This document shows, piece by piece, positions 9,439 through 64,000 of a DNA stretch of 64,000 nucleotides (position 1 is its first letter; every line of letters starts with the position of its first letter). The DNA is from Loxodes magnus (lineage: Eukaryota; Ciliophora; Karyorelictea; Loxodida; Loxodidae). Location of the stretch: NCBI GenBank assembly GCA_946699065.1, contig CAMPDV010000115.1, forward strand, positions 372,001 through 436,000, read 5' to 3'. The translations under genes were made by a program, and so were the position numbers. The notes beneath the pieces were generated by a model. It saw only the letters and a list, made by a program, of their open reading frames with translations, did not search any database and was not told the origin of the DNA.

Positions 9439-9935
9439 ATGCTAGGACTTAAAACCAAATTTTACGTGGACTCTAAAAAGCAGGAGCTAACAACGTCTTA
9501 GAAAGAAAAGGATCAGGATAGGTTCCAAAATGGTCACCAAATTGAGATTCTCAATTCTGAAGAAAAACCTATGAAGTAGTCTAAAAATTTAATTAATTCG
9601 GAAGTAGATCAGCAAATTAATTATGTTTAACTGATTAAAATGGTGCTGGACTTGCAGGAAGAAGTTAAAAAAAGGAAAAATATAATAAAAAACTAATAGA
9701 AAAATTTAAAATAGCAGAAAAAATAGAATTGAGACTCATAGTAATAAAGAGACTTAAACATCTTTGAAATATGTCTCAATATTATAGCAATCAAACTAAG
9801 ACCTAATAGGAAAATTAGAAGGATTTATAAAATAGAAAAAATGTTAGAATATTAAAAAATGCAAATCTAAATTGACTAAAAATTAAATAAGCACTCAAGG
9901 CAAAGGATTAGTTTTGCAGATTAAGCGTTTGAGAT
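9439..9935 (+). mobile_element. Gag-like element, decayed copy
   Basis: An ATG at 9439 reads MLGLKTKFYVDSKKQE, aligning with the MVEGFKxxFYTTSxQ start of other copies. About 60 codons later it carries QLIKMVLDLQEEVKKRK, nearly matching EQLIKVVLNLQEEVRKLR at 56.3 kb. A one-base shift later, the conserved Trp segment appears as KHL-TGA-NMSQ, where the 56-kb copy has AFWNIS with TGG. The knuckle is missing or unrecognisable. The copy sits just before the D2 duplication block. Confidence 0.65.
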
Positions 9936-9989
9936 AAAAATTTAATAATAAAAATTTTATTTTAAAAAATTATAAAACATTATATTTAT

Positions 9990-10857
9990 TAATTTTTTCA
10001 TCATTTTTAGATTAATAACTTGCTAGAAGGCATTCTATTTTATAAGATTTCATCTTGTTATTAATTTATCCTTGAAGATAACATTTTCTTAAAATAATGG
10101 TAATTTATTACTTATACTTTCTCTTTATTTAAAAAAATTACGAAATGTAAATTTGCAATAAAATCGGACATTATGGGAAAATGTAGGGAGAGAGAAAGAA
10201 TAGAGAAGAAACTAAAATACAATATCTAAAAGAAGATGACCTCCATTTGTTCAGCATCAAATGAGATTATCAATAAGAAATTAAGAATCTATGAACTGTT
10301 CGAGAAACCCTTAAAATATAAATCCTGGATAAGATATAGAGATATAAGGGAGCTAGTATCAAGCTAGAGTTGAAGAGCGAATTTTTATTTTTAAATATTA
10401 ACTATTAATTTATTTGTTATGAATTTAAGGTTGGCGGTGAATATTTTCATTTTTATACTTAAAGTACTCAATTCGGTTAATTTTTATAAATTATTATCAT
10501 TAAATTATTATCATTAAATATTCATATAAAATTCCAGAAGGATTTATGGTATTTATTATCCTCTAGTAATCTTATATTTATTAATAATTGCCTTTAATAA
10601 TTTTTTAAATATTAACTAAAAAATTTAAAATGAATTCCTTAATTTTTCAGTAAATTATTTGATGCTATTTAAGATAGAGATTAAGTACCCATTTAATATA
10701 CTAATAGGTATTTTTTTATTTAAAGTTTTTAAATAAATATTAATATTAGTCAATGATTTAGTGAAATAAGAATAAGAGATTATAACTATGTAAATACTTA
10801 AAATTTGAAAATATTAATAGATAATTTAATCTAAATTGAAATAATATCCTCCTAGAG
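9990..10857. repeat. Direct duplicate D2, left copy, first part (pairs with 28475-29010)
   Basis: Collinear with 28475-29010 in the same orientation: the blocks around GATTAATAACTT, ATTAATTTATC, ATTATCCTCTAG/A and AATTTATTAATA recur in order. The left copy carries about 300 extra bases (10130-10430) absent from the right copy, and at 10858 a further ~500-bp insertion (the S4 repeat), after which homology resumes at about 11376. The duplication therefore gives an empty site for both insertions. Confidence 0.65.
10130..10430 (+). other. Insertion relative to the duplicate; possible small ORF
   Basis: This segment has no counterpart in the duplicated block near 28620 and is richer in GC and purine than its surroundings. 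An ATG at 10173 opens about 66 codons in the Gln code (MGKCRERERIEKKLK...), ending at TGA near 10370, with a basic helical N-terminus and the stretch KYKSWIRYRD. No family is recognised. It could be a further fragment of one of the dispersed elements. Confidence 0.35.
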
Positions 10858-11362
10858 ATAAATAAATAAATTTGATTATGGAGCGCGTAGCACTCTCGTT
10901 GGTGCGCAGCTCTTTAAAAAAATGTTTCATACTGACAAGAATGTTTCTTACTGATAAAATTATCAGATACTGATAAACCTTGTTCAATATTGGTATAATT
11001 ATTCAGTACTGATAAAAATATTCAATACTGATATAATTTTAGAATACTCGTAATCTTTAATACTTGTTGGAGGTCCAAGGACATGGCAGGATTGTGTCTC
11101 ATTGCATCACCAAAGCAGAGGACGACATGTGTCAATTATGGGTACTTAAATTCCCCACCTCTGATGAAGCTCGCAATATTATTTCTTTTTCGTTCCAGAA
11201 ATAAGTCCAAATTAAGCTAGTACCGAAGATCTAAGAATCTTATGTCTCGAGGCCAACCAAAGCAGAAGAAGACATAAGGTCAATTTTGTGTACTTAACTT
11301 CCCCAACCTCTGATGAAGATGACGTTGTTGTTCACCTTCGAACAACTATGGCGATTTAATAT
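10858..11362 (-). mobile_element. Hairpin-ended repeat, copy S4 (inverted relative to 53447-53942)
   Basis: About 500 bp that match 53447-53942 almost throughout in the opposite orientation. Read on the minus strand it starts CGCCATAGTTGTTCGAAGG. It contains two ~75-bp related units (GGTTGGGGAAGTTAAGTAC and GGTGGGGAATTTAAGTACCC), then a run of degenerate ~20-bp repeats built on TACTGATA. It ends in the hairpin GAGCTGCGCACC...GTGCTACGCGC with an AT-rich TTTA tail. Flanking DNA on both sides is homologous to the uninterrupted block at 28600-29515, so this is a self-contained insertion. Confidence 0.75.
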
Positions 11363-11375
11363 ATAAAAATATAAA

Positions 11376-11875
11376 ATTATTTGAGTTCGTTATAAAAAGT
11401 TTTATTCTCCTTTTTTTTGTAAAAATATAAAAGTTTTCTATTATAAACAGTGATTAGATCTAAAAAGAAAGCACATTTTCTTTTTTTTTCTTTTTCGTTT
11501 TAAATTAAAATTATTTATTATTACTGTACATTTAGCTTTCTTTTCTAGCATGTCTATTTTTTAAAAACATAGCAACTATAACACAAGCTTTTTGTATAAG
11601 CTAGCTTATCACTATAGTCACAAATAGCTATCTTTATAGATTTTGTTCTTTCATAATAGCAAGTCATATATTATTCCTAATCATTTTATTTCCATTACTT
11701 ATGAGTGCATTGTATAGTTCTTGTTCTATTTTCAAGTTAAGGTTTGATATATGGAAGTGCTTATAGAGGGAAATATTAGGTTAAATTAGTTTTTGTGCTT
11801 TAGGTTTCGAGGAACTCAAAGTAGGAGGTAATTCTCTTTTTATCACCAGTTGCGTTTAAAGAAGAGTGATCAATG
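11376..11875 (-). pseudogene. Truncated copy of the small C-x-H/C-x2-C-Y zinc-binding gene
   Basis: Homologous to 29020-29515, which holds the intact gene at 29162-29569. On the minus strand it retains RTIQCTHKQWKQ, then a TCYYERT segment, then LAYTKSLCYSCY. The middle C-G-H of the second repeat is changed to C-D-Y, so metal binding there is probably lost. Homology ends at about 11875, removing the first ~20 codons, and the N-terminal half is out of phase with the intact gene. The conserved terminal TGA is also altered. Confidence 0.65.
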
Positions 11876-11879
11876 GTAC

Positions 11880-14800
11880 ATCAAATTAGAAACTTATTAG
11901 CACATTTTATATTTTGAACATTTAATAACTTAAAATTTGAGAGTATATCCTTATGGATGATTGCTAATAAATGTTTCCTAGTTATCTCATAAAATTAATT
12001 TTATTCTGCTGACTGTATTTTTTTAGAAAAAATTATGCTAAAAATTAAAAAAACTTCTAATTTTAATTTGCAAAGAAAAGGTTTATCATTAATAAAATTT
12101 TATTATATTTAAAACAATTTTTATACTTTATATAATCTAAAATCTATTATATTAAAAGACACTTAACTAAATAATTCAGAATTATTTAAAATAAAATAAA
12201 ATTTACTTAATAAAAGGTAATAAATATGAAATTTAAAATTAGAGAGATACAACAACTAAAAATAAAGATAATATTTATTGAATCAGATATTTTTGAAAGA
12301 TAACAATTGAAAATTCTATTTAACAAAATAAAAATATAAATCAAAGTAAAGATTTTCTAAAAGAAATGTATTTCCTGAAAAATAGAATATATTAAAAATG
12401 ATTAAAATTTATAATTTTTAACTTAAATATATGGGATATTAATAATTAACTTAAAAAACATAATTTTAGTTATTTTTAGTGTAAGCGATACTAATCCTAG
12501 TAAAATTTTTTAATTTCATTTCTTAAATTTTTTTAATAAATTTGATGAAGTATATTTCCCTATAGTTTTAAAATATAATCAATTTTATAGTCTCAAATTC
12601 TTAAACAATTAGTTAATCCTCACTTCATTTCTGCTAAAATTAGAGTTTATCCAATTAAATCATTTAAACATTTTATAATTATTTTTTAAGTAGAAATTCT
12701 TTAATTAATTTCAATTTTAATTAAGATATTTTGATGAATCTACCTTAAAAATTTAAATATAAAATCAAGTTTCTTAAATTAACGAAATTTAAAAGTTTAA
12801 AATTTCGCTAAATGAATATAATCCAAAATTAACTCTCGCTATAATCAAACAAAGAATCTTTAGTAACATCTATACTAAAATCTAAAAATATGAGTTGACC
12901 AAAACATTTTACTCAAACTCCTCCACAATCCTAAGATATTTAATTTACTTATAGTTAGAATTTATCAAGCAAACTGCTATCAAATTTAAAAAGTTCAAAT
13001 TGTTTTATCTTGCTTTTATTTTTTTAATTATTCGACTAAAATGTTTATTTAACTCAGATAGAATTCTAAAATTATTTATTTCGCTTATAAGAGTAATTTT
13101 AAAATGGTTTTAAGAAAATTCTTCTTCTAATAAACTTTTATCATAATAAATTTCTTAGAACAGCACAAGCTATTTAATTTATTGCAATTTTATTTCTTTC
13201 CTTTGTTCTTCTAAATTTTAAATAAGACAGTGCTATTAAGTGGCATATATTATGTAAATCCAATTAAAATTTGAAGGATTTGAAAAAATTAGACGATCAA
13301 AACCTATAAATATAAGAAAGAAAGTCTTTAAACAAAACTTTGCTTGATAAAATTAAATAAATTTCAGCCTCTTTTTTATCTAAAATTTCATCATAAAATC
13401 CTAAATTTAATTGATAACTCTAAAGAAATTTTTGAATTTAAGCTTATCTAAAAAGCAATATTTTTAATTGTACCTGCATTTTTTTATTTTACTCTAATCA
13501 AATATTACATTGCAAATCTAAAAAATATTTAATTTTGCTATACTAAAAAGGTTATAACTTGAAAAAATTGCCTAATATTTTTCTTCTTTTAGGTATAAAA
13601 ATATGAGAATTATAAATTTAGATAAAGCATACATCAATTATTTGAAAATACTCAAACAAGTAATATAAAAGTTTTATCAAGTATAAAGAGCTAAAATTTT
13701 TAGTATCTTAATTATTACAATAGACTAAATCCTTTTTTTTCTAATTTCTTAAAAATAAAAAAAATTAGAAATATATTTAAAATTTTAGCCAAAAATGTAA
13801 TGTAAACTTTCTATTATTTGATGTATGACTTTATATTTTTATTTTTAAATTTAAAATATTTTGAACTTCATTCGTAGTAATATATTTTTATAGTTTTGGT
13901 GTTGTTATGCTTGTAATTTATTTTATGGGTATTATATAAGAATTAGATAATTTATTTTTTTGCTTAAATCCTTGTAATTAAATCTTTATTAAATAACTTG
14001 AATCATTTCATGAGCTTTATTTATTTTATTAATGTAGAATTAATTCTATCATAATATGCTTAATTAATTTAAACCTAGTAAAATAAATGAATAGCAAATT
14101 TTAGTATGACTGTTTATTCTAAATAATAATAAACTAAATAGATAATCAAAACCTATTTTATTAAAAGATCAAATCATTAACTATTTTACATAAGAATATT
14201 CTTTGTTTAAACATAAAAAGGTATGCTTTTAATTTTGCTTGAACATATGTGTAAATGATTATTTTCATATCCAGTATTATTCTTACAATTTCAAAAATTT
14301 AAAACCTTTGATTAAATAAAATCTTTTTAATATTTGCCAATTTTATTTATTTTAGATTTACCTTTAAGATTCATTTCAATCCTAAAAATAATTATGCTTA
14401 AATGAATATCTCTATTACCAAAATTTTGATTAAGTTCAAGGAAATGTATTTTTTTTGTTTGCTGTTAAAGCAAAATAAACTTATTTTTTAAAAAAAATTA
14501 CTTCTTAAACTAATAAATTAAGATGCTTAAAGAAAATAACATGCCTAAAGAATTTTCCCATAAGTTGCTTGTCTAAAATTAATGTTCTATTTTAGTGATT
14601 TTTAAACATTTTATTTTATTTACTGTTTAAATTCTTTTAATAGAAATAGCCGCAGCAAGAAAAGGCGAAAGAAAGTGCTAACTTTGAGTGCTACTAAAAG
14701 ATTTATAAAATAATATTAAATCTTATATATCAAAGTAGTAATCAATTAATTATATAGCTTATGGTATATAATTAACCTCCTTCTTTAAATTATTTTTGAT

Positions 14801-16252: not shown

Positions 16253-16812
16253 TCATCTTTTTTCCACTAAAAGTCGACTCAAAGTGTTTAAGCAAGAATC
16301 AATAATTTTTTGCTTTTTTAATAGTAAAGGTTCTACTTATTATTCTTGAAGATTCTATGATTTATTTTCTTTTTAATTTTCTTAAGCTTCAGTCTTATTA
16401 GATCTTTTTTCCTTTAAATGATCTATCTTTATTAGTATTTGCTATTTATTAGTCCTTGAATTTATTTCTGGAAATATTCACAGAATTGCTTTTGATGATC
16501 TTTGTACTTCTCATATAGATTTTATAATTATTATTCTTATTTCTAGTTTTACTCCACCTTTTGTAAAGGAAGCAAAATTTATACCCATCTTTTCTTGCAC
16601 TGTCTTCCTATCCTTACTTCATTTCTATGAAAGTCAGAGTTTAGTTCTCTAGCAACTCTTGTCCACTTGATTTTTCTTTTACAAGAGGTAACTATTTTAC
16701 TAAGCCTTTAATCTTCTTCTTTTGTCCACTCAACTTTCACATATTTCCTTCATCCTTAAGTAGATTACTAACTAGTAAAATTGATTTGGCTATCTCTCTC
16801 TTTTATCTGCAT
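16253..16812 (-). CDS. Myb/SANT-like protein with one apparent frameshift
   Basis: Start ATG 16812-16810, terminal TGA 16255-16253. Residues ~26-90 form a Myb repeat: VEWTKEEDQRLSKIV, then IKWTRVARELN, then GRQCKKRWVQILLP, with three Trp as TGG. An in-frame TGA at 16752-16750 (codon 21) matches the same TGA in the paralogue at 48103. A second, weaker repeat follows, with Gln (TAA) replacing its first Trp. About two thirds through, the phase shifts by one base near a TA-rich run (16425-16440), after which the C-terminus (KKQKIIDSCLNTL) aligns with the paralogue's; total length is one base short of 187 codons. Probably a DNA-binding protein; either a recent pseudogene or a sequencing error. Confidence 0.75.
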
Positions 16813-20873: not shown

Positions 20874-21057
20874 ATTTTTGCTATTTTTGCTATTTTTGCT
20901 ATTTTTGCTATTTTTGCTATTTTTGCTATTTTTGCTATTTTTGCTATTTTTGCTATTTTTGCTATTTTTGCTATTTTTGCTATTTTTGCTATTTTTGCTA
21001 TTTTTGCTATTTTTGCTATTTTTGCTATTTTTGCATTTTTGCTATTTTTGCTATTTT
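20874..21057. repeat. 9-bp microsatellite, about 20 units
   Basis: A tandem array of ATTTTTGCT, nearly perfect, with one unit shortened by two bases near 21035. Because nine is divisible by three, the open frames over it (about 20833-21178) give only repeated Cys-Tyr-Phe or Leu-Phe tripeptides and should not be taken as genes. Confidence 0.95.
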
Positions 21058-23289: not shown

Positions 23290-26255
23290 AATTTATTAAA
23301 TAAAAAAATAGCCATCAGATTTTATTCTAAAATTTTTTTTAATTGGTTTTTTATAATTTTATTAACTTCTAATTTTTATTTATTCTTCATTCTCAATACT
23401 ATGCATTTTTATCCTAATATTTTATATCTTTTTACCTTCTTACATTCTAATATTCTTAGAGCTATTTTATTTTATTTTGAATCTTTTCTTTTACGTAACT
23501 TATTTCTAGTAAATTCTGAAATTCAATTAGTAATTTTAGCTTTACTACCTTTGCTAATCTAATTTTGATAATGCTAATAATCTCTGCACTACATTTTCTT
23601 TATAAAGTGTTTATACCTTTATGCAATTCATTTATTTTCGCTTAATATTACCTCAGAAAATGCAGAATTGTATGATTTTATAAAAAAAGCTACTATCTAA
23701 TCCATCAGCTAGCCTTAAGGACTTTTATTTTACATAATTTCCTTAACTATTAATTAAATGTCATTTTAAATTGCAACTCTTAATTTAAATTTCAAATACC
23801 ATTGTACTAGGTTATTTTAACCTTGTTGAGTAATTATCAAGATTATCTTATTAAAAATCTTCGTAGCTTATAAATAAATCTTTTGAAGTATAATTTCATT
23901 AAATTCGCTCCTTATATTCTAATTTCTCTCAAATATAATTTTATAATCTATTATTATAATTAGATCAACAACTTTATAGAGATGCTAGATGATTAATTTA
24001 TCATCAATCTAAATTAGATGCTTATCAATCTCTATTAACTTAATTTAATTTATTATATTTTATTTCGTCGTCTTCATTTATTTAATGCTTGTCCTTTTAT
24101 ACTATCAAATCTGATTATTTATTTTGCTTTGCTTGAAAAATCCAAGAATTATATTTCCTTTAATCCATAAAAGAAATTGTTATTTTCTAAATTCTCATGC
24201 TTTATAAATTAAATTAAATTAAATAATGTTCACTTTTCAGCTTAATAAAATAATTTTTATGATATCACTCTCATTCTGAAACTCTTAGGTCTTCATTATT
24301 GTTTTGATTTGATTTTTTTTTAGTTTAGTTCTCTTCTTCTTGTATCTTTGTTCATTCTAAAAATAATTAATTTAAGTCTTCTTTATTCAAATATTACTAA
24401 TGGATTTATTTTTCCCTCAATCATTCTTAAAATCAAGTTATTTGTTAATGTTTTTGTTTTATGCTAGACCATGTTTTTTTAATCTTAAGATCAATATCTT
24501 CTAGGATTTATTTATTCTTTTTTGTTTCTTAATTTATTAATATTTGATTCATACTTATAATAAATCTTTTTTATGGCTACTTGATTATATCTGGAGTTAA
24601 TTTCAAATTTATTAATTAATTTTGATTCTTAAATAGTTTGCCAATTTTTGAGTAAGTTGAAAACATTTTGTTATGTTTATAAGGCTTATATTAATTATAT
24701 AATTTTTAGTTTATCATTAGCTTCTATTTTACTAAATATAAATCAACCCTTTTTCGGAATTCAAGCTGTTAACTCCTTCTTATTATTATAAAATATTTAG
24801 AACATACTCTTAAATATTTCATATCTTTATAAGAAAACTTTATAAGAAAACTTTATATATTTAAACATTATTATCTATGTCAGCAAAAGGTATCTTTCTA
24901 GTTGGCACTACAAATGAAAAATCCCAAAATATAATATTAGACTTTTGATTATTTTTATGTTTTTTATTTAGTATTTTTAGGATACTCTAATAACTTGTCT
25001 CTTTTTGATAAGATTTAATTTGGAAATTTTATTTTAAATTTATTCTTAATAAACCAAAATTTAGTAAGATAGGTTCAGCTAGTAACCTATTATAATATCT
25101 TGCAATCATTTTTTCTATATTAAATATAAACAAATAGATTAGGCAAAATTTTATTATAAAACAATTATAATTTACTAAAGAAACTCAAGTTGTATTCCCA
25201 TTAATTTAAAATACTAGAAAAAGAAAATACATTTTATTGTATATAATTATTTAAGAATATTAAACTGGAAATTCCAAGCTATTTAAAATTAAATTATAAG
25301 AATGTAGGATTCATTAATTAAAATTATATTTAATTACTCTAGACATTTTTAGAAAGAATAATTTTAAAAGTTTATTAAATATAAAGCTAAATGGAATCAT
25401 TATTAATTAGTAAAATTAAGCTTATAAAATCTAAAAATAACAAATAATTAAATAAAATTTAAATCTTATATTTAAATCTATCTATTATCTTTTTTCATTC
25501 TAAATAATCTTTAATTATTAAGAATATATGCCTAGCTTTGTTTAACTATATAAAATTTTATTACAAATAATCAAAAAATAATAAGCTCTTTAAAATTATC
25601 AAAACAATGTTAATTTAATTTTTGTATTTAATTAAAATTTTTTAATTAAGATGTAGGTTTATTAATCTACAAATAATTTTAATAATCTTAACATTAAAAT
25701 AATAATAAATTAAAAATTTATTAAGCAAATTATTAATTATATTTAATAATAATTTTAAATATAAAGAAAATATAGATAATTAATAAATGCTTTTTATTTA
25801 ATATTTTTTTAATATCATTATAAATAAATTTAATAAAATGAACATTAATATAATTTTACATTTATGGAGAAGATAGTTTTTAGATATAAATTATTAAAAG
25901 CTTTAATTTTATAAAATATTAATAAAAATAGAAATAAAATTAAGAAATTTTTAAATTGCTATAATTTAAGATAATAATAATAGCATTTATTCATTTTTTT
26001 GATTCTGTAAAGATATTAAGAGAGAATCTTATAAGTTAGTATTTAATATTTAGCTTTAATTTAAATATTTCACATTTATTATAAATAAATTTATGCTATA
26101 ATAAAATATATATAAATTTTAAATCTGATTATTATTATAATAATATAATATAATTTATACATATTAATATAGTAAATTTTAAATTAATAGTAAAAAAAGA
26201 AAAATTAAAATATATAAACATAAAAATTTATTGTATTCATTATTATAAATTTTAT
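23290..26255. repeat. Direct duplicate D1, right copy
   Basis: Collinear, same-orientation, diverged copy of 1900-4150, ending around TTGTATTCATTATTAT at 26240. The plus-strand frame at 23242-23562 inside it is a hydrophobic, AT-driven frame not conserved in the left copy. The minus strand shares SYNSAF and nearby residues with the left copy. Unlike the left copy, it is not followed by the S2 repeat. Confidence 0.6.
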
Positions 26256-28474: not shown

Positions 28475-29515
28475 GATTAATAACTTTCTACCAGGCATCC
28501 TTTTTATAATATTTTGATTTAGTATTAATTTATCTTTGAAGAAAAAATTTCTCTGAAATAATGGCTAAATATTATTCCTATTTTCATTATATGATTTAAG
28601 GCTGATAAATTATTCTAATTACATAATTAAACAACTCAAATTTATTTATTTATATAGCTTATTATCTTTAATACTCAGATAAATTCCAGAAGAATCTAGT
28701 TAGGGTATATATTATCCTCTAACATTCATAAATTTATTAATAGTGCCTTTAATAATCTTTTAAACTAAAATATTAGCAAAAAAAATTAAAATGAATATTC
28801 CTGTTCTTTCTATTGAATTATTTGATGATATTTATATAGGTATTATATATTCATTTCATAGATTAATAGGCATTTTTAGATTTAAAATTTGTTAGTAAAT
28901 ATTAGTTAAAGATCTAGCGAAGTAAGTATAATAGATTATTACAACACAGTACTTAAAATTGAAAAAGGTTAATAGAGATTTTAAGTTAAATTGAAGTTTA
29001 ATCCTCTAAGAGATTCTTTAAGTGATTTAAGTTCATTAAAGAGTCTTATTTACGTATTTTTGTAAAAATGAAGATTTTCATTATAAACATTGAATAGATC
29101 TAAAAGAAAGCAAATTGTCTTTGCCGTTTTAAATTACAATTATAATTATTTATTATTAGCTTCAGTTTAGCTTTCTTTTCTTGCATAACTACTTTGTAAA
29201 AATGTAGCAACTATAGCACAAACTATTTGTATAAGCTAGCCTATCACTATGACCACATTTAGCTATCTTTATTTTTCTCGTTCTTTCATAATAACAAACC
29301 ATACATTATTCCTAATTATTTTATATCCATTACTTATGGATGCATTGTACAGTTCTTGTTCCATTTTCAGGTTAAGGCTTGATCTCAGGAAGTGTTTATA
29401 ATGGGAAATATAAGATTGAGGTAGAGTTTAAAGTTTAAGTTTATGAGGAACTATTAAGTAGAGGCAAATCTCTTTTCTACTACCAGTTGCGTTTAAAGCA
29501 GAGTGATTGAGTCTA
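28475..29515. repeat. Direct duplicate D2, right copy (uninterrupted)
   Basis: Collinear with 9990-10857 plus 11376-11875. It lacks the insertions at 10130-10430 and 10858-11362 and so preserves the empty sites. The junction matching the S4 insertion is at about 29000-29020, where the sequence reads TCCTCTAAGAGATTC then TTTAAGTTC without interruption. Its right part contains the intact zinc-binding gene at 29162-29569. Confidence 0.7.
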
Positions 29516-37507: not shown

Positions 37508-37924
37508 ATGAAATAGGATAAAAAATCTCACATAATTGAAGGCTTGCCAACGCTGCTTGGAAAATTTCCTTTTCCTTAGTTCTAAACTAAATGAAATTAA
37601 ATTAGAGAGTTACCTCCTCTCAAAAGAAATTTTTTGGCATAGAAAAACAAACTTTTTGGTCTAGGGGATAAGCTTTAAGAAGTTGATAATGTTCAAGCTA
37701 CTTTTTTATTTGCAAGTTAACCAGAAGCAAAAATTCCAACTCAAGTTGAAGAAGAGGAATATAACCCTTAAGAGTAATTTTACCAATTATTTGAAGGAAC
37801 TAGAAAATAAAAAATTGCTAAATGTGGACACAGCGATAGACTAGTCTTCATAAAAAATATGTGCTATAGTTGCTATTAATTCGCAAGGAATTCAATTAGT
37901 AAAAGAAAATAGATATTAAAATGA
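37508..37924 (+). CDS. Small zinc-binding protein, paralogue of 29162-29569
   Basis: The ATG at 37508 opens 138 codons closing at TGA 37922-37924. The N-terminus MKQDKKSHIIEGLPTLLG and the segment RELPPL align with the 29-kb gene. In-frame TGA at 37592-37594 is codon 29, exactly where the 29-kb gene has TGG, so it reads as Trp. One metal-binding unit is intact: KCGHSDRLVF followed by MCYSCY. The first unit is replaced by an acidic stretch (QVEEEEYNPQEQ), so this paralogue keeps only one. The C-terminus ends SKRKQILK then TGA, aligned with its paralogue's stop. Sequence beyond the TGA is also open, so a longer protein is possible but not favoured. Confidence 0.75.
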
Positions 37925-48102: not shown

Positions 48103-48666
48103 ATGGATGTAACTAGAGAGGATTCGTTAACTAATCCTAATTTTAAGTAATCTTCAATCGGATGAAGAAAATACGTAAAAGTAGATTGAACTAAAGAAGA
48201 GGATTAGTTACTTCATTAAATTGCTGCCTCAAGTTAAAAAAAGATTAAATGAGCAAGAGTAGCTAGCTAGCTAAATTCTGATTTCCATAAGCAAGAAGTG
48301 AGAACGAGTAAACAATGTAAGAAACGTTGGCTTTAAGTATTGCTACCACTGTAAAGCGTAGAATGAAACTTAGAAAAAGAATAAACTTTAGTTGAATTAT
48401 ACTAGAAGCATTGAAACCACTAGAAATTTTTTCTTTAAGAATGTTAGAAGTATTTTCAGGGTCTAAATAAATATTAAATATAAATACTTCTGGATAGATC
48501 AAAGGAAAAGCAAAATGAAGAGTATTAAAAGCAAGAAAATGCAGCATTATTAGGAAATAAGCATGCTAATGAAAGCAAGAATGAGGATAAACTCACTAAA
48601 AAGAAAAAGATATAGGATTTATGCTTGCATATTTTATGTAATTATCTACAAGGAAAATTTTTCTGA
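48103..48666 (+). CDS. Myb/SANT-like DNA-binding protein, 187 aa, five in-frame TGA as Trp
   Basis: ATG 48103 to TGA 48664-48666, no frameshift. Repeat 1 (about residues 29-75) reads D-[TGA]-TKEEDQLLHQIAASS, K-[TGA]-ARVASQLN, SKQCKKRWLQVLLP. That is the Myb pattern W...W...W, with the first two Trp as TGA and the third as TGG. Repeat 2 (about 88-135) reads E-[TGA]-NLEKEQTLVELYQKH-[TGA]-NHQKFF. TGAs lie at 48163, 48187, 48250, 48364 and 48412. The paralogue at 16253-16812 has TGG at the second and third of these columns and TGA at the first. The C-terminal region is Lys/Glu-rich, ending TKKKKIQDLCLHIL and then an aligned TGA. Likely a nuclear DNA-binding protein; its target is unknown. Confidence 0.8.
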
Positions 48667-51399: not shown

Positions 51400-53440
51400 A
51401 AAAATCAAAACATAGATTAAATCCAAGCCAAATAAATATATATAGTAATTATAATAATAATCTTATAACAGAGAATATTATTTTATGCCCTATTTTATTT
51501 ATCTAAACTATTCTAGATAATTAATTATAAAAATTAAATAATTTTTACTTAAAAATTAATGTAATGTTTGAATGTTAATATTTTAGTTAGAATCATTTAA
51601 ATATAATATATTTTCTTTAAATAAAAAAACTAAATTATAATAATCAGATATAGCTTCTAATATTCTTTTTAGATATACTTAAGTTTAATTATAACTTTAC
51701 TATTTAAATAATCTATTTTTTAAATAAGCCATCAAATATAAATTTTGTAAAAAGAAATTGGTAGTTAAAGTTTATTTATTCTAAAATGATTATTTAAAAT
51801 ATTAGTTTTTATAATCTTAAATCTTGCTATTTATTTGAAAAAACTTAAGTGAATATTAACATTCTATAATATTTAAATTATGAACTTTAAGAAAACATTA
51901 TATCGTTGAAAATTTGACTGATGAACCGTCAATTATTAATGACTTATTTTAATAATTTCATAGAATTTAAATATTTTATACTAATAAAAATGTTTAATGA
52001 GGATTAAAAATTAGCTGAGAATAAATTTCAGAAAGTATTTATAAATTTAATTATATAGAATCATTTTAATGTCTATAAAAATTTAAAAATTAGCTTATAT
52101 TTTGATTTAATATAAAATTTAGAAATAAAGTTTATTATTAAGCTTATTTATCTTTAATAATGAATCCGAAATAAATATAAAAATAAGTAGATTGTAAATT
52201 AAAAATGAGCATTTAACATATTCTTAATAAGTATAAATAATAAAATAATTATAGTTTTCCTTAATTATTTTTTTATATATTATACTTTTATAAAATATAA
52301 TAGAGATTTTAATATGATTTATTAATATTAATTATAATAGTTTGTAATTAATTTAAGATAATTAAATCTTTTATATTTATAAATTAATTTATAAATATAC
52401 CATTAGCATAAAATTATTTCTACTGGCCTAAGATTTATTTTTATCTGGAAAAGCTTAAGTTTATATTATTTATTTCATTTTTATTTAAATAGCTTTATAA
52501 GCAAGTTATTAATATAACATATCTATAATTTGATAATTTCAGATTGAAACTATTATATTATATTATTTTAGTCCTAAATGCTTTATTAGTTAACTTTTTA
52601 TTTAATTTATTATTTTATTAGTATTTAATAATTAAAAATAACTATTATATTGCTGAGAAAGTACAAAGATACTTAACTTCGAAATCATAATTTTAAGATG
52701 ATTATTGTAAGAAAATTATTCAAAATAAAGATGGAATAACTCTGCGAATCACATTACTTTAAATTTTTCTGGCTAATTGTGATTGATGTTAAAATCTATG
52801 ATATAACTAAAGTTGTTTATATAAACCAAACCAAATTAGAAATTTTTATAAAAGAAAAACTAAAGCCTAAAGAAAATTGAAAGAAAACAAAAATAAATAC
52901 TTAAAATATCTTTAATTATATAAAAATAATAATAATAATTGCTATTTAATTTTAGTTTTTATTGTAAATATCTTAGATATTATTCTGATATTTAAGTTTA
53001 CCTTTATAGCATGAAAAGTAGAAGAGTAATTAATATTGCTAAAAAGAACTTACATGATTTAATATTTTGGTTGTGATTGTTGCTAGATTTTTAATAGAAA
53101 TTATTAATATTTATCATATGTTCGTTTTAGTTTTCAAGTATTTTAGCAAAGCTAAAGACTTATAAAAATTTTAAAATAATGTAATATTAGAGAATTATAG
53201 TGGATAATTTTATAAATTAAAAGTATTAGACTTTCCTTTAATTAAATTAATTTAAAATAAATTATGTAAGTTATAGGAAATTTCCTTACTTGTTGAATGA
53301 TTTTCTTATATTTTTTTAGATTTAAAATGTTTTAGATATAAATTTAAAAATGCTTTTATATCATTTTATTTACAGCTAAAAGAAATAGAGAAAAAGGAAC
53401 AAACTTCGTATTAAATAATACCACTAAAACTAAATTTATT
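51400..53440. other. AT-rich stretch with no supportable gene
   Basis: AT-rich sequence up to the hairpin repeat; nothing recognisable. Confidence 0.35.
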
Positions 53441-53446
53441 ATTATA

Positions 53447-53942
53447 TATTTTTAAAACCGCCATAGTTGTTCGAAGGTGAACAACAAGGTCATCTTCGTC
53501 AGAGGTTGGGGAAGTTAAGTACCCATAATCGACTTTATGTCTTCCTCTGCTTTGGTTTGACCTCGAGACATAAGATTCTTAGACCTTCGATACTGGCTTG
53601 GCTTGGCTTGGCTTGGCTTCGTTATTTTTAATTCTGGAACAAAAAAGAAATAATATTGCGAGCTTCATCAGAGGTGGGGAATTTAAGTACCCATAATTGA
53701 CACATGTCGTCATCTGCTTTGGTGATGTAATGAGACACAATCCTGCTATGTCCTTGGACCTCCAACAAGTATTAAAGATTACGAGTATTCTAAAATTATA
53801 TCAGTATTGAACAAGGTTTATCAGTATCTGATAATTTTATCAGTAACAAACATTCTTGTCAGTATGAAACATTTTTTTTAAAGAGCTGCGCACCAAAGAG
53901 AGTGCTACGCGCTTTATAATCAAATTTATTTATTTATATGAT
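53447..53942 (+). mobile_element. Hairpin-ended repeat, copy S5 (inverted partner of 10858-11362)
   Basis: Begins CGCCATAGTTGTTCGAAGG. It contains two related units around GGGGAAGTTAAGTACCC and GGGGAATTTAAGTACCC, about 175 bp apart, then TATCAGTA-type ~20-bp degenerate repeats. It ends GAGCTGCGCACC...GTGCTACGCGC, TTTATAATCAAATTTATTTATTTAT. It differs from the 10.9-kb copy by an expansion of GGCTT to five units at 53595-53619 and by fewer TACTGATA repeats. A conceptual frame exists but is no better than other phases, so it is treated as noncoding. Confidence 0.75.
53595..53619 (+). repeat. GGCTT pentamer x5
   Basis: Five perfect GGCTT units inside the S5 repeat. The inverted S4 copy has only a degenerate single unit at the corresponding place, so this is a copy-specific expansion. 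Confidence 0.9.
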
Positions 53943-54484: not shown

Positions 54485-55245
54485 GTTCTTGGAGGTATTT
54501 CAACCTCTTTCCCGCCAATCTCTAGATTGCTCTAGAGGTTAAATATAAAAGTCTAAATGTCTCTGCAACTCTTCTCCTTGCTATGCATACTGTCACTGAT
54601 TTATCTATTCACCTAGTTAATTATTGGAATTTTTGATCTTGTATATTTTTCCAAATTTGTTGCAATAAAATTTTTCTTTTTCTCTTTTTAGTTTTAGTTG
54701 CTGTTGTATCTTCTTTCTATTGTCCAACTTCTTCTAGTATTTTCAGTATTTTTATTTAAAATTTTAAAATTTCTAGTATCATTTCAATAAATACGTTAGA
54801 GAGCTACAATAATAGCATCTTTTAGATGCTCTTTTAGTTTTAAGTTTTGAGGTCTTTTATCCTTCGATTAACATTGAGACGTTTCCTTATTTTTTTTGAT
54901 TTATTTAGCGCTGCAATTATTGCTGCTTTTCTTCTATTTTGTTGACCTGTTCTTTCTGCTTCTATTGTTAGTGTTGTGACTAATTCTTCTGATATTGTGA
55001 TATATTCAAAATACGTTAAAGTCATTTTCTTAGGTCATGAATCTCGATTCTATTTCCTCTGCGAGTTCAAGTTTTTCATTAATTTTTATTTTCTTTCTTT
55101 AATTATTTTGGTCCTGTCCTGGAGAGCACCACTTTAATCAGTTAATCGTAGCTTATTTACTATTATGTGGTTAGATTGGAGACTTGCGAGATTATTATTT
55201 TTTTAGGCTATTTTGTAGCGAAGAATCCTGAATTATTTTTCTTAA
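54485..55245 (-). mobile_element. Gag-like element, decayed copy
   Basis: The 5' end on the minus strand reads NSGFFATKQPKK, matching the family's xxGFYTTSxQ start but without a Met. DQLIKVVLS follows, then after a frameshift EKLELAEEIESRF, MTQENDFNVF-[TGA]-IYHN. The last matches FQERDLNAFWNIS at 56.4 kb, with TGA in place of TGG. The 3' end carries GAGGTTGAAATACCTCCAAG, as in the 19-kb copy. Another phase is open from ATG 55025 for over 130 codons in the Gln code and overlaps it; which phase, if any, is translated is unclear. No intact knuckle is seen. Confidence 0.65.
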
Positions 55246-55993
55246 TAGATATATCAAAGATATTTAAAAACATTTCTAAATTAAAGCTTTTTTATAAGAG
55301 TCAAATTAAAATTGAAGGAATTTAAGCAAATTAAGATTATTAAAATAAGTAATCTTAAGTCTAATAAGGCCAGTATATTGATGATCTCTATTAAGGAAAA
55401 AAGCATGAATACGGAATTTTGATATATAAGAATGGAGTTAAATATAAGGTTAATGAGTAGAAGATTAATGAAAAGGAAAAGGAATTATATAAACTCCTGA
55501 TGGAAAAGTGTATGAAAAGGTGATTGATATAAGGATTAGATTCATGATTATGGAGTTTTGAAATGTAAAAATGGAGCTAGATATGAAGGCTAATGAATTG
55601 AAAATTTAAACTGAGGGAAAGGTATTTTATATTACTCTAAAGGAGATAAGTATAATGGAGATTAATATAGGGAAAAAGACATGGATACGGAGTTTATTCA
55701 TATAAAAATGGAAATAAATACGAGGGCAATGAATAGGAGGTTAAAGCTAAGGTAAAGGAACACTTTACTATACAAATGGAGATATCTATAAAGGAGAATG
55801 GCTTTAAAATTAAAAACATGGTTAAGGATTTTTCAAATAATTCGATGGAGATTAATATGAAGGATAGTATTTTTAAAATAAAAAATAGGGAAAAGCAATC
55901 TTTCGTTATGCAAATGGAGAATTTTATGAAGGAGAGTGAAGCAAAAATTAACAAAAATGGAAAATTTTTTTTATTTATTAAAATGGTACCAAA

Positions 55994-56007
55994 TACGAAG
56001 GATAATG
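55994..56007 (+). repeat. Target-site duplication, left copy
   Basis: TACGAAGGATAATG immediately precedes the Gag-like insertion. The same 14 bases recur at 56977-56990 immediately after it. In the MORN frame it encodes Y-E-G-Q plus the first two bases of the Trp codon. Because the MORN motif is itself repetitive, chance similarity is possible, but the exact match at both element ends makes duplication more likely. Confidence 0.7.
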
Positions 56008-56976
56008 GAAATAAAAAATGGTTGAAGGTTTCAAGTCAGTCTTCTATACAACCTCTTCCTAAGCCAAAAAGGAAGGGAGGAAGCAAGAAACCAAGTCTTA
56101 ATAATCTTAACAATCTTCTCTATCACAACCTTAACTAACACTGAACTAACAGCTAGGAATCTAACAAAACGAACGAAAGCCAACCTTGAAAATATACACA
56201 CGGAAACTCCAACCTCAAGTGAGAAACCGAGGAAATAGATTAGTCTGTTCTCCACCAGGAGGTATCAGAGTTCAATCCTTCTGGCCAGATGAGCATGGAG
56301 TAGCTCATCAAAGTGGTACTGAACCTCCAGGAAGAGGTAAGGAAACTGAGAAAGGATGATGAGAAGCTGATAGAACAACTCAACCTAGTAGAAGGAATAA
56401 AATACAGACTTATGTTCTAGGAAAGAGATCTTAACGCCTTTTGGAATATCTCACAAAGTTAGACTAAAGAATCCTAAAATTAGCTTTAGAAACAGACTGA
56501 ACTGGATAACAGACTCGGAAAAGTAGAAGAGAAATTGCAAACTTTTAAGAAAGAGTAAAGCGAAACTGGAGCTATACAAATGGAAATTGAAGTCTAGAAA
56601 GAGCAAACAAATCAAGGAAAATAATTCTAAATAAAAAAGAAATGTTTCTGCTGTGGAAGCGTATGACATCTTTATCGGAAATGTTAGAAATTCTAATAGA
56701 AATAAAGAAACTATTGGATAAAAGAACAACAAAAGAAGAAAAAAGAAGAAGCAAGAATGAAAAGAATGCATTGCAACCCGGAAGGTTCAATATACAAGAT
56801 TAAGATGAAATCAAGGCAAGTTAAAGAAGGGAAAACCTGGAAAAATCCGAGTTCCCAATCTCGTTAAAATTGGGCGACCCGAATTTTAAATTTAACAGCA
56901 GGGAGCATGAACTGCTGTATTCCTAATGGGGTTGGAAATCCCTAAAACGGAAAACTTAAAATTAATATTATTATTA
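56008..56976 (+). mobile_element. Gag-like element inserted in the MORN gene, 969 bp
   Basis: Starts GAAATAAAAAATGGTTGAAGG, like the 19-kb copy, and ends with AACTTAAAATTAATATTATTATTA, a short TTA-type tail. ATG 56018 gives MVEGFKSVFYTTSSQ and a Gln/Ser/Pro-rich region. A frameshift then leads to MEQLIKVVLNLQEEVRKLR (coiled coil), DLNAFWNIS, and the knuckle CFCCGSV-[TGA]-HLYRKC with CX2CX4HX4C spacing, followed by a basic tail. It is noticeably richer in GC than the flanks, suggesting a young or foreign sequence. It is complete at both ends, with a target duplication, yet carries no polymerase. It therefore appears to be a non-autonomous retroposon copied in trans. Confidence 0.8.
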
Positions 56977-56990
56977 TACGAAGGATAATG
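56977..56990 (+). repeat. Target-site duplication, right copy
   Basis: TACGAAGGATAATG, identical to 55994-56007. The following base makes the Trp-position codon TGA, so the interrupted MORN repeat used TGA there before the insertion. Confidence 0.7.
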
Positions 56991-58029
56991 AGTAGAAGGT
57001 AAAGAATAAGGAAAAATAATTAAAAAATATTCTAATGGAGATGTTTGTGAAGGAGATTTTTATTAAGATTTACGTCATGGAAATGGAATTTAGAAATGTT
57101 TTAAGGGAATTCAATATGAAGGACAATGGGTTGAAGACAAAGAATAAGGAAAAGGAGTTTGTTTTACTTAAAAATGAGATACTTATGAAGGAGAATGATT
57201 TAAGGGATAAAAGCATGGGTATGGAATAATGAATTTGGCAATGGATCTAAATATGATGGATTTTGGGTAGAAGGAAAAGAACAAGGTAAAAGAATCTGTC
57301 AATCTCTAAACAGAGATATTTATGATGGAGAATGATTTAAAGGGCAAAGACATGGATTTGGAGTATGAAAGTATACTAATGGAAATAAATATGAAGGTTA
57401 AAATGTAGAGAACTAAAAATAAGGTAAGGGAACTTAGTATTATGCTAATTGCGATGCATATGAAGTAGAATGGCATAAAGGATAGAAGCATGGTTATGGA
57501 ATTTGCAAATATAAAAATCGAGACAAATATGAAGGATACTTTGAGGAAAATCAAAAATAAGGGAAAGGCATTCTCATATACTAAAATGGAGATTAATATG
57601 AAGGAGAATCGTTCAAAGGATAAAGACATGGATTTGGTATTTACAAACATAGTGATGGAAGTAAATATGAAGGTATATGGATTGAAAATAAGGAACAAGG
57701 AAAAGGAATATTTTATTACGAAAACGGAAATAAGTACGATGATAATTTTTTCTTTGGCTAAATAATGGATACAGAATTATTTTCTATATAAATGGATCTA
57801 GGTTTGAAGGATAGTGAGAAAAGAGTCAAAGTTAGGGTAAAGGAACTTTATATAACTCTAATGGAGATTCATACGAAGGAGAATGGTTTTAATGTTAAAA
57901 ACATGGACAAGGAGTTAAGAAATGCAGAAATGGAGATAAATATGAAGGCATCTGGGTTAATAATAAACTTCAGGGGAAAGTAATCTTTACTGATAAAAAC
58001 GGAAAAGTAGAAGAACAATTCTGAGAAAA

Positions 58030-59490
58030 TGACATTCAGAAATAATGAAATAACAACTATAGATTCAAATTAATTAATAAATTTTATTTTTTATTCCTCA
58101 TATTTCAAGCTACAAGATTTTATTTTTTGGTTTTCTCTAAAAAAATTGTTATCATCTTTTTAAAATTTAAAGGCCTTCAAAGAATTAACGTCATTTGTCT
58201 AAATAAGCTTTCATCTTTCCTTAGTTTTAAAAAAGTATTTTTGCCAATAAACTTTGTAATTTAAACTTTTGGTATTATATGCAAATGAGAAATAAAAAAT
58301 TAGATTAAATAGTAGTTTATAAAAGAGTATTTATTAATAGATTCAATGTTCAAGAGTTTAATTACATACTTTTACTAAAGCAAAAATAGTTTGAAAACTT
58401 AAGTCCAAGATTTATATAATTATAATTAAATGAATAAAAGCTTTTAATATTTTCGCTGAAGTATAGAGCTATGTAATTAGTCTCTTCATATAATTATTTG
58501 CAATCGAACCACAAAAGATAAATAAATTATCCTATTAATTAAGTATTTATGTACTTAAGTATTTAAAAGAGGCTGCAATGAATTTTTATATGTTTTTCAA
58601 AGATAAATTATTGTTTAAATAAAGTTTTTCTAGAAAAATAATTGCAAAAGTCCTTTATCTTCAATTCGTAAATTTATTCTTTTCTTCGAAAGAAATATTC
58701 TATTAAGTTTACTAATTAAATAAACACCTATAATTAATAAATATTTTAAAATCTTTTTAAAAAGCAGCAAAAATAATCTTCAAAGTTAAATTTTAATTTC
58801 CTTTATTAGTTAAGTTAAGCTGCTATAATAATAAATGTAGGAGTTAAATAAACAGAAATATAATAAATAAAAATTATAATTGTTGATGATTATTCAACCT
58901 AACAAATAATAAAAATAAAATATTTTAATATATTTCTTAATAGCTATTTAAGCAGTAGTCTTAGGCATTTCATTTAGTTTTAATTAAATAAAATATATTA
59001 AGATTTTATTAATAAATAAATCTCTTTTATCTTTAATTTTAACTAATTACAATCAGCTATATATCTAATTATACAAATTTAGATATAAAGTTACTTTAAG
59101 CTTGTGAAATAATTTAAATATATTTACAGCTAGTTGTAGTAGATTTTAAATAATTTATTTTAGAAAGTTAAAAAAAGTTTCTAAATTGTTCTTTCTAACT
59201 AATTTTATAAAAACGAAAGTTTTATATTTATGATAATTAGAGCAATTTTAGTACAAAGCTTAATTAATTTATAGAGATATGTTTAACAATCTTTAAGAAG
59301 GATTTCGTTAATCTAAATTCTAAGAATTAAACTAAAGTTCTTTAATTATTTTCTTTTTTTCTAAGGCTATTTAATTATAAAAGTCTCAATTATACTTTAA
59401 TCTAATTGAAAATACTTAAATAGTAGCAAACTCCTAGGCTTCTAATTAAATTAATTCTTTTTTATTTTACTAATTTAAATTGTAACTAAT
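58030..59490. other. AT-rich interval after the MORN pseudogene
   Basis: The plus phase that continues into 59497-61023 is largely open here as well (TGA at 58579 and 59407 only), but the composition is AT-driven and no domain is seen. No gene is called. Confidence 0.3.
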
Positions 59491-61157: not shown

Positions 61158-64000
61158 ATGGATTAATTTATGTGTGCTGAATGCACTTAATAATTTAATT
61201 CTTAAGATATTATTAAACTCTAGTGTAAATGTCCTATATGCATCAAATGTCTTGCTAATTGGTATTTCAAACAGCTGAAAAAATTTAACAAATAGCAAAA
61301 GCAATAAAATTTATAGCTAGTGAATTAACTTGAGAAGCTAAGTTGTCCTTTTGAAAGTAGTCATACACCTTTATAACTGAATAACTCCCTTCTTTAAACG
61401 ATCTAATCGCAGGAAAATTAACCAGCAAGCTCTTCTTTCTAAATGTTGGAATTTGCTGATGATCAGTGCTAATAATGCTCTTAATTATCCAGCTTATAAA
61501 TTGAAACAAAAAATATACAAAACGAAAATGCAAATTTAAAATAGTAAGTTGCTTATCTATTAAGCTAGTAGTAGCAACTAAATATAGCTCTATAAAATAG
61601 CTAAAATGCTTTAAACTAAGAGAAATAAAATAACTTAGCATTGCAATAATAAAGTTAAAGCTTACAAATCTAAAACTAATAACTATAAAAAAAGATTCAA
61701 TAGCAGGAACTAAATTTATAGAATGCTGAAAGCAATTTAAAATAAACACAAGAGTTTAACTAGCAACTTTTATAGTTCTAACAACAAAATATTAACAATA
61801 TCTAAGCTTAAGAATTAATCAAGAAGAAGGAAGAAACTTTTAGAAATATTTAAAATAAGAGTTTTGAGCTTTAAATTAATTTTAAGAGAATAGAATTAAA
61901 TGATTAAGCTTTAAAATAATAACTGGAGAGCTAAGAGTAAGAGTATAAAAGAAAGCTTCAGCATAAATAGAAAGAGTTTGAAACTTTTAATATAGATCTT
62001 CAAGATAAAAATGATTAGATCAAAAAATTGCAAGAAAAGCTAAATTAAATCACTAGAGAACTTTAAAATTAAAGCAATTACTAATAGTCAGCAAATATAA
62101 AATTAGAAACTTAATTGAAACTAACAGCAAGCGAGTTAGAGCAACAAAAGCAAATAAACTTAGAACTGTAAAAATAATTTTAGAGTTTTTAAGAATTCAA
62201 AGCGATGCTTTAGTAAAAGCAAAATTAATTCCAAGTTTATTGGTTATAAAATAATTTAAATCCTTAAATCATCTAGAATTTAAACCAGTAAAGTACATAG
62301 AATTTGTAATAAAACTAGTTACAAGCTCCTTGATAAAGCCAATAAAATATAGTTAAAAACAGTAACGAGATTTATCCCAATTAAGTTTAGAACTAAAACT
62401 TATCTTAGTAAAGCTATGAATAAGCTGCTCAACTTTAAAAAAGTTAACTAGATTAAAAGTAATCACAAGAGAGATCCATCTAAGAATAAAAATAAAATTA
62501 AGCAATAGATTAATAAGTAAATTTAAGTCAAAATCCAATTAAAAAATAAGAGTTAAATCAATAAGTAAAATTAAGCCAAGATATGTAAATAAATTAATAG
62601 AATCAGTAGTAAGTTATTAGAAGTTAAAACTAAATCTAACCTGAAAATCTACCTCCTTAACAAGTTGAAGCACCTTAACAACCTGTTCTTCATTTAAATA
62701 AAAGAGAACCTTTATAAAGGCTTATCTAAACAAATGTCTAAAATGATTAATTCTAGTAAACGATTTAGAATCTGATGTAGGAATATGATTGCTTAAGAAA
62801 ACTCAGAAACGATTAAAATTCCTATTATAGAGCACTTGGCTTCTCTTTCCTTGAGCATTTATGTAGAGCATCAACTCCAATCCAAGAATTATAAAATTTG
62901 ATTAGTTTACTATAAAGCAACTTTGGATACTTTAAAGTAAGACCATTTAATGAAGAACACCAGTCACTTAGAAATAATTTGATTAATTTATTGGGCTGAC
63001 TTCTTCAATAAAGGTAATAGCAAAATAAATTTATACTTCAAGCGTTAGAATAAACTTACCAACAGCAAGAATTAATAGATGAAATGATAGTATGGGAAAT
63101 GCGATAAATGACAGCTAACTATCTAGAGTTACATCAAGAAGTATTTAAACCATTTTGTGATAATAACTATCCCTTAGAATAAATAATCGAAGATACTTTA
63201 ACAATGGGAAAGAGAGCTGATTTTATCTAGATAGGTCCTTTGCAAGTAGTATTGGGATTTAAAGTAAATTGGATAGTCTTAAAGTAAAACAACTTTTAAA
63301 ACTTAAATTAATTCGAAGTATCAGGATAAGTTCCTATTTTACATTTTTTACTAAGAAGAAATTATGTAGAATTATTATACACGAAAGCTTAAACTCTTAT
63401 AGATGGTTTCAACATGAATTCTTTAAGCTTTGATGGAAACTTATAGCAGTTAAGCTAAGTAAATAGCAACATGTAGTTACTTTATTGGAACATCTAGCAA
63501 AATGAATAAGTAATAAAAGACTTCAATAGAGATTTAGAACCAATTTGTAAAAAGATTTATGTAAAGACTGAGTTATCTATATAGTAAATAGCCCAAGAAG
63601 CTTAGCTCAAGAGATAAAGCATATCTACTAAGTCTAAGGAATAACAAAGTAATTAGCAAGGTAATTAATAAAGGGAATTTTAATGCTTTTAATGCAATTA
63701 GAAATTTCACAAGGAAGAGATAGTGAAATTATAATGCTAATATCAATTTTGTAAAGGATGTCTTACTTTATAGATTTAGCTCTATACAAACAATTTTTAA
63801 TAATTTGAAGAAAATATCTGAAGAAAATGCTTAATCGAAAATTGTACTCATCTACTTAGCAGTAAAGAATTGGAAAGCATTTTGAGTCAGGAGCAATACT
63901 AAATAGTAAAACCATTCATTATCTCAAAAGATTAAAGTTAATAAGAAAATACTTCAAATTAAAAAATGCAAGGAGAAAGCATTCAAAAATTAGACTCAGA
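61158..64000 (+). CDS. Otubain-like protein with RING-like clusters and coiled coil (partial, catalytic residues altered)
   Basis: The ATG at 61158 opens one phase to the window end (948 codons) with no frameshift and three in-frame TGAs (62331, 62997, 63819). An upstream in-phase TGA lies at 61122. Residues 6-31 form a Cys cluster, CAEC...LQCKCPICIKC, like the first half of a RING finger. Gln-rich coiled coil covers about 100-390. Residues ~545-740 resemble an otubain (peptidase C65) domain: RNDQNSYYRALGFSFLEHL near 550, ANYLELHQEVFKPF, and RRNYVELLY near 733. The catalytic motif DGNC is replaced by DQNS (Ser555 for Cys) and the His of HYDILY by Asn735, so deubiquitinase activity is unlikely. 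A second Cys cluster (CFQC...LQCQYQFCKGC, from residue 843) follows. It may bind ubiquitin or act as a RING-type ligase; this is inferred. The minus-strand frame 61285-61749 is its antisense shadow. Confidence 0.8.

Follow-up and report, generated by a model that had tools for sequence, protein, structure and literature searches.

Internal UGA read as tryptophan in a Myb-like gene and in divergent tubulins of the karyorelict ciliate Loxodes magnus

Karyorelict ciliates, including Loxodes, use the genetic code of NCBI table 27, in which UGA is the sole stop codon and also encodes Trp when it lies far from the poly(A) tail (PMC11441545). According to the literature, the proximity of the poly(A) tail decides on termination at UGA in ciliate codes of this type (PMC11441545, PMC4967479). 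Parduczia sp. shares table 27 with Loxodes magnus, and its use of sense UGA is low, at 0.120% of codons (Swart 2016, PMC4967479). In the code of Condylostoma magnum, UGA is likewise Trp according to context, and no tRNA-Trp(UCA) is reported to have been found there (Swart 2016, PMC4967479). In this species any of the three stop codons can also close a gene (PMC12153298). Blastocrithidia has in common with Loxodes a tRNA-Trp(CCA) with an anticodon stem of 4 bp and a substitution at Ser70 of the release factor eRF1, but differs in that UAR encodes Glu and UAA serves as stop (PMC12153298). The tRNA-Trp(CCA) with a 4-bp stem is known from Loxodes itself, and in Blastocrithidia and Condylostoma it has been tied to the decoding of UGA (PMC13092985, PMC12005148). 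Decoding of UGA by the tRNAs of the latter two was shown in reporter systems (PMC13092985).

The DNA analysed here is a stretch of 64,000 nucleotides (contig C115, positions 372001-436000), hereafter the window. The taxonomy of its source is Karyorelictea, Loxodida, and the window is karyorelict ciliate DNA, almost certainly from Loxodes magnus. Contig searches were run on an assembly of 705,730,643 bases in 7,843 contigs; the published assembly of the somatic (MAC) genome of this species is of 706 Mbp (PMC11441545). We are highly confident in one joint explanation of the data, namely nuclear DNA of L. magnus under table 27, with UAA and UAG as Gln, UGA as Trp inside genes and as stop at their ends, and a decoding system that would combine a tRNA-Trp with a 4-bp stem, a weak eRF1 and the proximity of the poly(A) tail. 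The reason why internal UGA is Trp lies in the source, a karyorelict ciliate with a known unusual code, and since UGA is also a stop codon this code is context-dependent. A preliminary description of the window had proposed UGA as Trp together with UAA and UAG as Gln, and had pointed to karyorelicts as the source. The reading of UGA is borne out by Trp columns in tubulin, Myb, MORN and zinc-type genes, that of UAA and UAG by Gln columns in tubulins, and the pointer was correct. Codon meaning, the dual role of UGA, the tRNA genes and the residues of eRF1-like proteins were all observed in the present data. The code itself was already described and our data are a confirmation of it; no difference from the code of Parduczia sp. 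was found, UAA and UAG being Gln and UGA being Trp inside genes and terminal stop in both. The value for the field is thus modest, that of an independent reading which confirms a published code. What the analysis adds are gene-level counts for tRNA-Trp arrays and for eRF1-like residues.

The Myb-like gene that carries the argument in the window is a single open frame of 187 codons under table 27 (48103..48663, forward strand). Five TGAs lie inside this frame and a sixth (48664..48666) ends it, so that the five in-frame TGAs without frameshift noted in the preliminary description stand. The table-27 translation matches Pfam Myb_DNA-bind_6 at 3.9e-11, Pfam Myb families scoring above their cut-offs, and it aligns with c-Myb in the PDB at 7.9e-05. 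In the c-Myb alignment, the Trp residues are matched by codons 29, 50, 76 and 88. Codons 29 (TGA, 48187..48189) and 50 (TGA, 48250..48252) are the first and second Trp of repeat 1, codon 76 (TGG, 48328..48330) is the third, and codon 88 (TGA, 48364..48366) is the first Trp of repeat 2. The remaining TGAs are codon 21 (48163..48165), located upstream of the Myb repeat, and codon 104 (48412..48414), which is at no invariant Trp column and corresponds to Gly in c-Myb. TGA thus occupies three of four invariant Trp columns, and not four of five as had been claimed, and it makes up five of the six Trp codons of the gene. Repeat 1 has all three Trp columns, while repeat 2 keeps only the first. Myb repeats usually carry further Trp residues later, which are missing from repeat 2 here. 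The window Myb gene is a real gene and its internal UGAs are Trp; it is presumably expressed. No homologue of the protein was found at E <= 0.001 among 5.8 billion proteins. A near-identical second copy of the gene (C115:699199-699759) lies on this contig too, some 279 kb further downstream, and has all five internal TGAs in common with it. Within the window, a paralogue at 16253..16812 (minus strand; the match passes into another frame near 16450) carries TGG at both column 29 and column 50, as had been noted for two of these columns, TGA at column 21 and TAA at column 88.

The Myb family search of the assembly scored at least 150 places out of 569 candidates. The alignment was made from 30 fetched loci and the 16-kb copy (31 rows, 188 columns), with TGA written as X and therefore unable to favour Trp. 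In this alignment, the invariant Trp columns 29 and 50 are filled by TGG and TGA alone across all 31 members (27 TGG and 4 TGA at column 29, 28 TGG and 3 TGA at column 50), and column 76 is TGG in 31/31. Column 21 has 16 TGA, 1 TGG and 14 other codons (n=31), and column 88 has 16 TGA, 7 TGG, 3 TAA, 3 Leu and 2 Met. In total, 39 of 41 sense TGAs fall in the six of 188 columns in which TGG also occurs; the maximum in 20,000 random placements was 8, which is not a true p-value because the rows are related. The other two sense TGAs are codon 104 of two near-identical copies, at a column that has Lys, Ser or Asn in 29 of the 31 rows. Over 28 loci the family is intermediate in its usage, with 44 TGA and 95 TGG. 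Three members (L041, L049 and the 16.8-kb copy of the window) have TAA, a Gln codon, at column 88, against TGA or TGG for Trp in others; with table 27, a single G-to-A step in TGA is enough to replace Trp by Gln.

The ends of the Myb genes show the second role of UGA. All 30 fetched loci have TGA at the aligned C-terminal end, 28 of them at columns 194/195 and two (L039 and L058) at column 196, whereas genes of Condylostoma magnum also end at the other two stop codons. After column 88, codon 104 excepted, no coding column has TGA or TGG, and in the last 60 codons of 28 loci sense TGA is absent, TGG likewise. L039 and L058 were excluded from this 28-locus table of gene ends because their stop sits one column on. 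The last 20 codons contain 7 of 329 TAA, 5 of 106 TAG, 23 of 152 CAA and 0 of 52 CAG; a scarcity of TAA just ahead of the stop may be a trait in common with the table-27 code as known from Parduczia sp. and L. magnus.

How UGA may be read as Trp was approached through the tRNA genes. The tRNA and Rfam scans of the 64-kb window gave no matches. A generic tRNA search of the assembly with RF00005 gave 63 places, and the 30 loci obtained from these were all tRNA-Lys, with tRNA-Ala beside some; this route was abandoned and a tRNA-Trp pattern, made of the D-arm and the anticodon loop with CCA or UCA allowed, was therefore used instead. The tRNA-Lys and tRNA-Ala genes likewise occur in repeated units. 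The pattern had 145 matches in the assembly, versus 2 for a reversed control. Among 100 of the 145, the matches lie mainly in two tandem arrays, on contigs C67 (spacing of about 187 bases) and C148 (about 241). ARAGORN predicted 48 tRNA-Trp(CCA) genes in the first (C67:482200-491500) and at least 41 in the second (10 kb, C148:157200-167199). In all 89 intact array genes position 27.43 is mismatched (A.C or T.C) and four other positions are paired, which gives an anticodon stem of 4 bp. On C67, a single gene of the 48 has a deviating D-arm, and the truncated last unit of the array, which forms no full tRNA, has A.T at 27.43. On C110, three copies show a stem of 5 bp and imperfect T-arms. As such a tRNA-Trp was already reported in Loxodes, the array result is a confirmation. 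The simplest way to read UGA would be with a cognate tRNA-Trp(UCA) like that of mitochondria and mollicutes, and a search for its gene had been suggested in the preliminary description. However, only two UCA-like sequences occur among 100 of the 145 matches of a pattern that a divergent D-arm would escape, and ARAGORN found no tRNA at either, which makes this route very unlikely. Most likely, the abundant tRNA-Trp with its ordinary CCA anticodon and its 4-bp stem, unpaired at 27.43, would read UGA as a near-cognate codon, a mode of decoding taken from the literature.

Termination was approached through the release factor. The eRF1 family search gave three places, and a further, intron-broken eRF1 gene may exist beside the two eRF1-like copies on C196 (L102 and L103). 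The match on C2 resembles Pelota/Dom34 and was set aside. Among solved structures, L102 could be aligned with an eRF1 chain, presumably that of yeast, across 123 residues (8.3e-34). Both copies (L103 as read by eye) keep NIKS, and the T-A-S that precedes it is replaced by Arg-Ala-Gln, this Gln being encoded by TAA. Both also have Phe for the first Tyr of YxCxxxF. Six residues after the S of NIKS, a position which we take to be human Ser70 in the TASNIKS numbering, both copies have Ala where Ser70 aligns. In Blastocrithidia the residue is Gly, and the change from Ser70 to Gly accompanies UGA readthrough (PMC12153298). An eRF1 with Ala at this place may bind UGA weakly, and termination at UGA would then prevail only close to the poly(A) tail, as the literature proposes.

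The preliminary description had advised a check of in-frame TGA in conserved proteins, and we ran it on tubulins. The sample is 28 of 150 tubulin places, eight taken directly from the search and 20 chosen by hand; copies are related within groups, so that the counts below are not independent. Of 36 TGAs in the aligned core, 28 are at a reference Trp, and the other eight stand at non-Trp columns in five divergent copies. The beta-tubulin L016, aligned with X at TGA to PDB 6u0h_B over 435 residues, has its three TGAs at Trp (101, 344 and 397). The 112 reference-Trp cells of the 28 loci hold 64 TGG, 28 TGA, 2 TAA, no TAG and 18 other codons. When TAA, TAG and TGA were all masked, 93 of 93 TAA/TAG codons were at Gln in the eight beta loci of at least 94% identity. 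The figure for all 28 loci is 211 of 383, because many columns of the divergent copies no longer agree with the reference. Among the 25 loci whose ends were displayed, 21 have TGA right behind the acidic tail. A TGA also stands close to the end of L023 and L024, which lack a typical acidic tail, and L021 shows no TGA after its tail. In L019 (C525), a divergent beta-tubulin, the codon at the end of the acidic tail is TAA or TAG, as against TGA in L018 and L020; it is either a rare other stop or part of a longer tail.

These data also bear on the possibility that the TGAs are ordinary stops in decaying gene copies, produced from TGG by G-to-A changes in AT-rich DNA. The window is indeed very AT-rich, fast-evolving tubulin copies are enriched in TGA, the Myb genes form a multicopy family, and the window gene differs from its nearest copy (pair L029/L030) by 11 non-synonymous and 5 synonymous changes (0.025 and 0.048 per site), counts by which selection on the window copy is weakly shown. 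At TGG columns, however, decay should give rise to TAG and TGA with about equal ease. Of the two codons that a single G-to-A step makes from TGG, Myb columns 29 and 50 have 7 TGA and 0 TAG, and the tubulin Trp columns have 28 TGA and likewise no TAG. Selection therefore separates the two codons, which fits TGA as Trp and TAG as Gln. Moreover, L015 and L016 are 94% identical to a solved beta-tubulin over 435 codons in spite of three TGAs each, and dN is lower than dS in all seven computable Myb pairs (of 11 pairs, dS being saturated in four), e.g. dN 0.139 and dS 0.729 for the 16-kb copy versus L032. Decay is thus extremely improbable as a source of these TGAs, and UGA as Trp is the reading retained.

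Further exchanges of TGA and TGG occur in the window. The zinc-type gene (AKCGHSDR...CYSCY; its frame has no Pfam family) has TGA at 37592..37594 (forward strand), aligned to TGG at 29483..29485 (minus strand) in its paralogue. This exchange, noticed in the preliminary description, holds for one column of an alignment that is free of gaps and was made with TGA masked. Near 11.8 kb (minus strand) lies a third, frame-broken copy, which keeps TGG; read by eye, its following column has TGA where the 29-kb copy has a Gln codon. In the MORN-repeat stretch (55000..58300, forward strand), where an exchange had also been seen, the Trp column of 11 matched repeats has 3 TGA (57196, 57333, 57815), 4 TGG (55799, 57127, 57678, 57884) and 4 other codons, and each of the other offsets (28 tabulated) holds at most one TGA. 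These repeats are spread over all three forward frames, presumably by short introns or by frameshifts. The exchange described at the FW-NIS column of Gag-like copies did not reappear: the pattern gave three matches, all TGG. That UGA is a stop, passed by programmed readthrough or selenocysteine in a few genes only, would agree with terminal UGA in 30/30 Myb loci and with canonical tubulins lacking internal UGA in their aligned core, but it is hardly credible against the UGA/TGG exchange at Trp columns of four kinds of gene (tubulin, Myb, MORN and zinc-type), the lack of Cys as an alternative at any TGA-bearing tubulin or Myb column, and the arrays of 4-bp-stem tRNA-Trp that point to general decoding.

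With UGA read as Trp, its distribution between genes can be considered. The 15 canonical tubulins (9 alpha and 6 beta, at least 96% identical to the reference) have 51 TGG and no TGA at reference Trp, and the 13 remaining loci have 28 TGA and 13 TGG. The preliminary description held that housekeeping genes with TGG only would speak against UGA as Trp. This usage is what canonical alpha and beta tubulins have, and not what the other tubulins have; such a test is therefore misleading if run on the canonical genes alone. The A-fraction at AAR and GAR codons is 0.79 in canonical alpha, 0.79 in canonical beta, 0.83 in the two 94%-identical TGA-type betas and 0.78 in divergent copies. These values are similar, and A/G pressure at these codons therefore fails to account for the TGG/TGA split, although overall GC3 is lower in the TGA-using groups (0.19) than in the canonical ones (0.26-0.28). 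Gln codons go the same way, the share of TAR among them being 0.40 in canonical alpha, 0.50 in canonical beta, 0.73 in TGA-type beta and 0.77 in divergent tubulins. In contrast to the low sense-UGA use of Parduczia, UGA is here the majority Trp codon in divergent tubulins (28/41) and in the window Myb gene, and is absent from canonical tubulins.

Highly expressed genes are known to avoid reassigned codons in Blastocrithidia (PMC12153298), and UAA/UAG in another ciliate (PMC10553269). For Loxodes, no statement of this kind was found in the passages of PMC11441545 consulted. Sense UGA is excluded from the canonical tubulins and preferred in the faster-evolving copies, an observation which may be new; the data suggest exclusion from the most conserved tubulins. 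One could go further and propose that sense UGA divides the genes of this genome in two, with presumably highly expressed canonical tubulins devoid of UGA on one side, and on the other faster-evolving paralogues and the window Myb gene as a UGA-rich, translationally throttled set governed by the balance of 4-bp-stem tRNA-Trp and eRF1. We consider this wider proposal unlikely. If true, the tRNA-Trp/eRF1 balance could co-regulate UGA-rich genes, for example while new macronuclei form.

Some other features of the window can be mentioned. An otubain-like gene at 62583-63500 (forward strand) is real (Peptidase_C65 at 3.6e-19, OTUB1 at 4.7e-13). It was considered as evidence on the code and set aside as uninformative, its single TGA being in a poorly aligned stretch. 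The protein has Ser at the catalytic Cys position and Asn at the aligned His (RRNYVELLY versus RPGHYDILY), and from these residues it is probably a dead enzyme. The OTUB1 chains compared also have Ser at the catalytic position, the native residue there being presumably Cys. Pfam gave no family in the stretches 1900-3900 (read on the minus strand) and 9500-12500. Repeats about 71-83% identical link 1942-3854 with 23330-25608, and 10505-11870 with 28659-29507 and 53423-53937; the frame-broken zinc-type copy near 11.8 kb belongs to this repeated DNA. Finally, a 9-base tandem repeat (ATTTTTGCT) occupies 20874-21057, with 20.6 copies and 98% matches.
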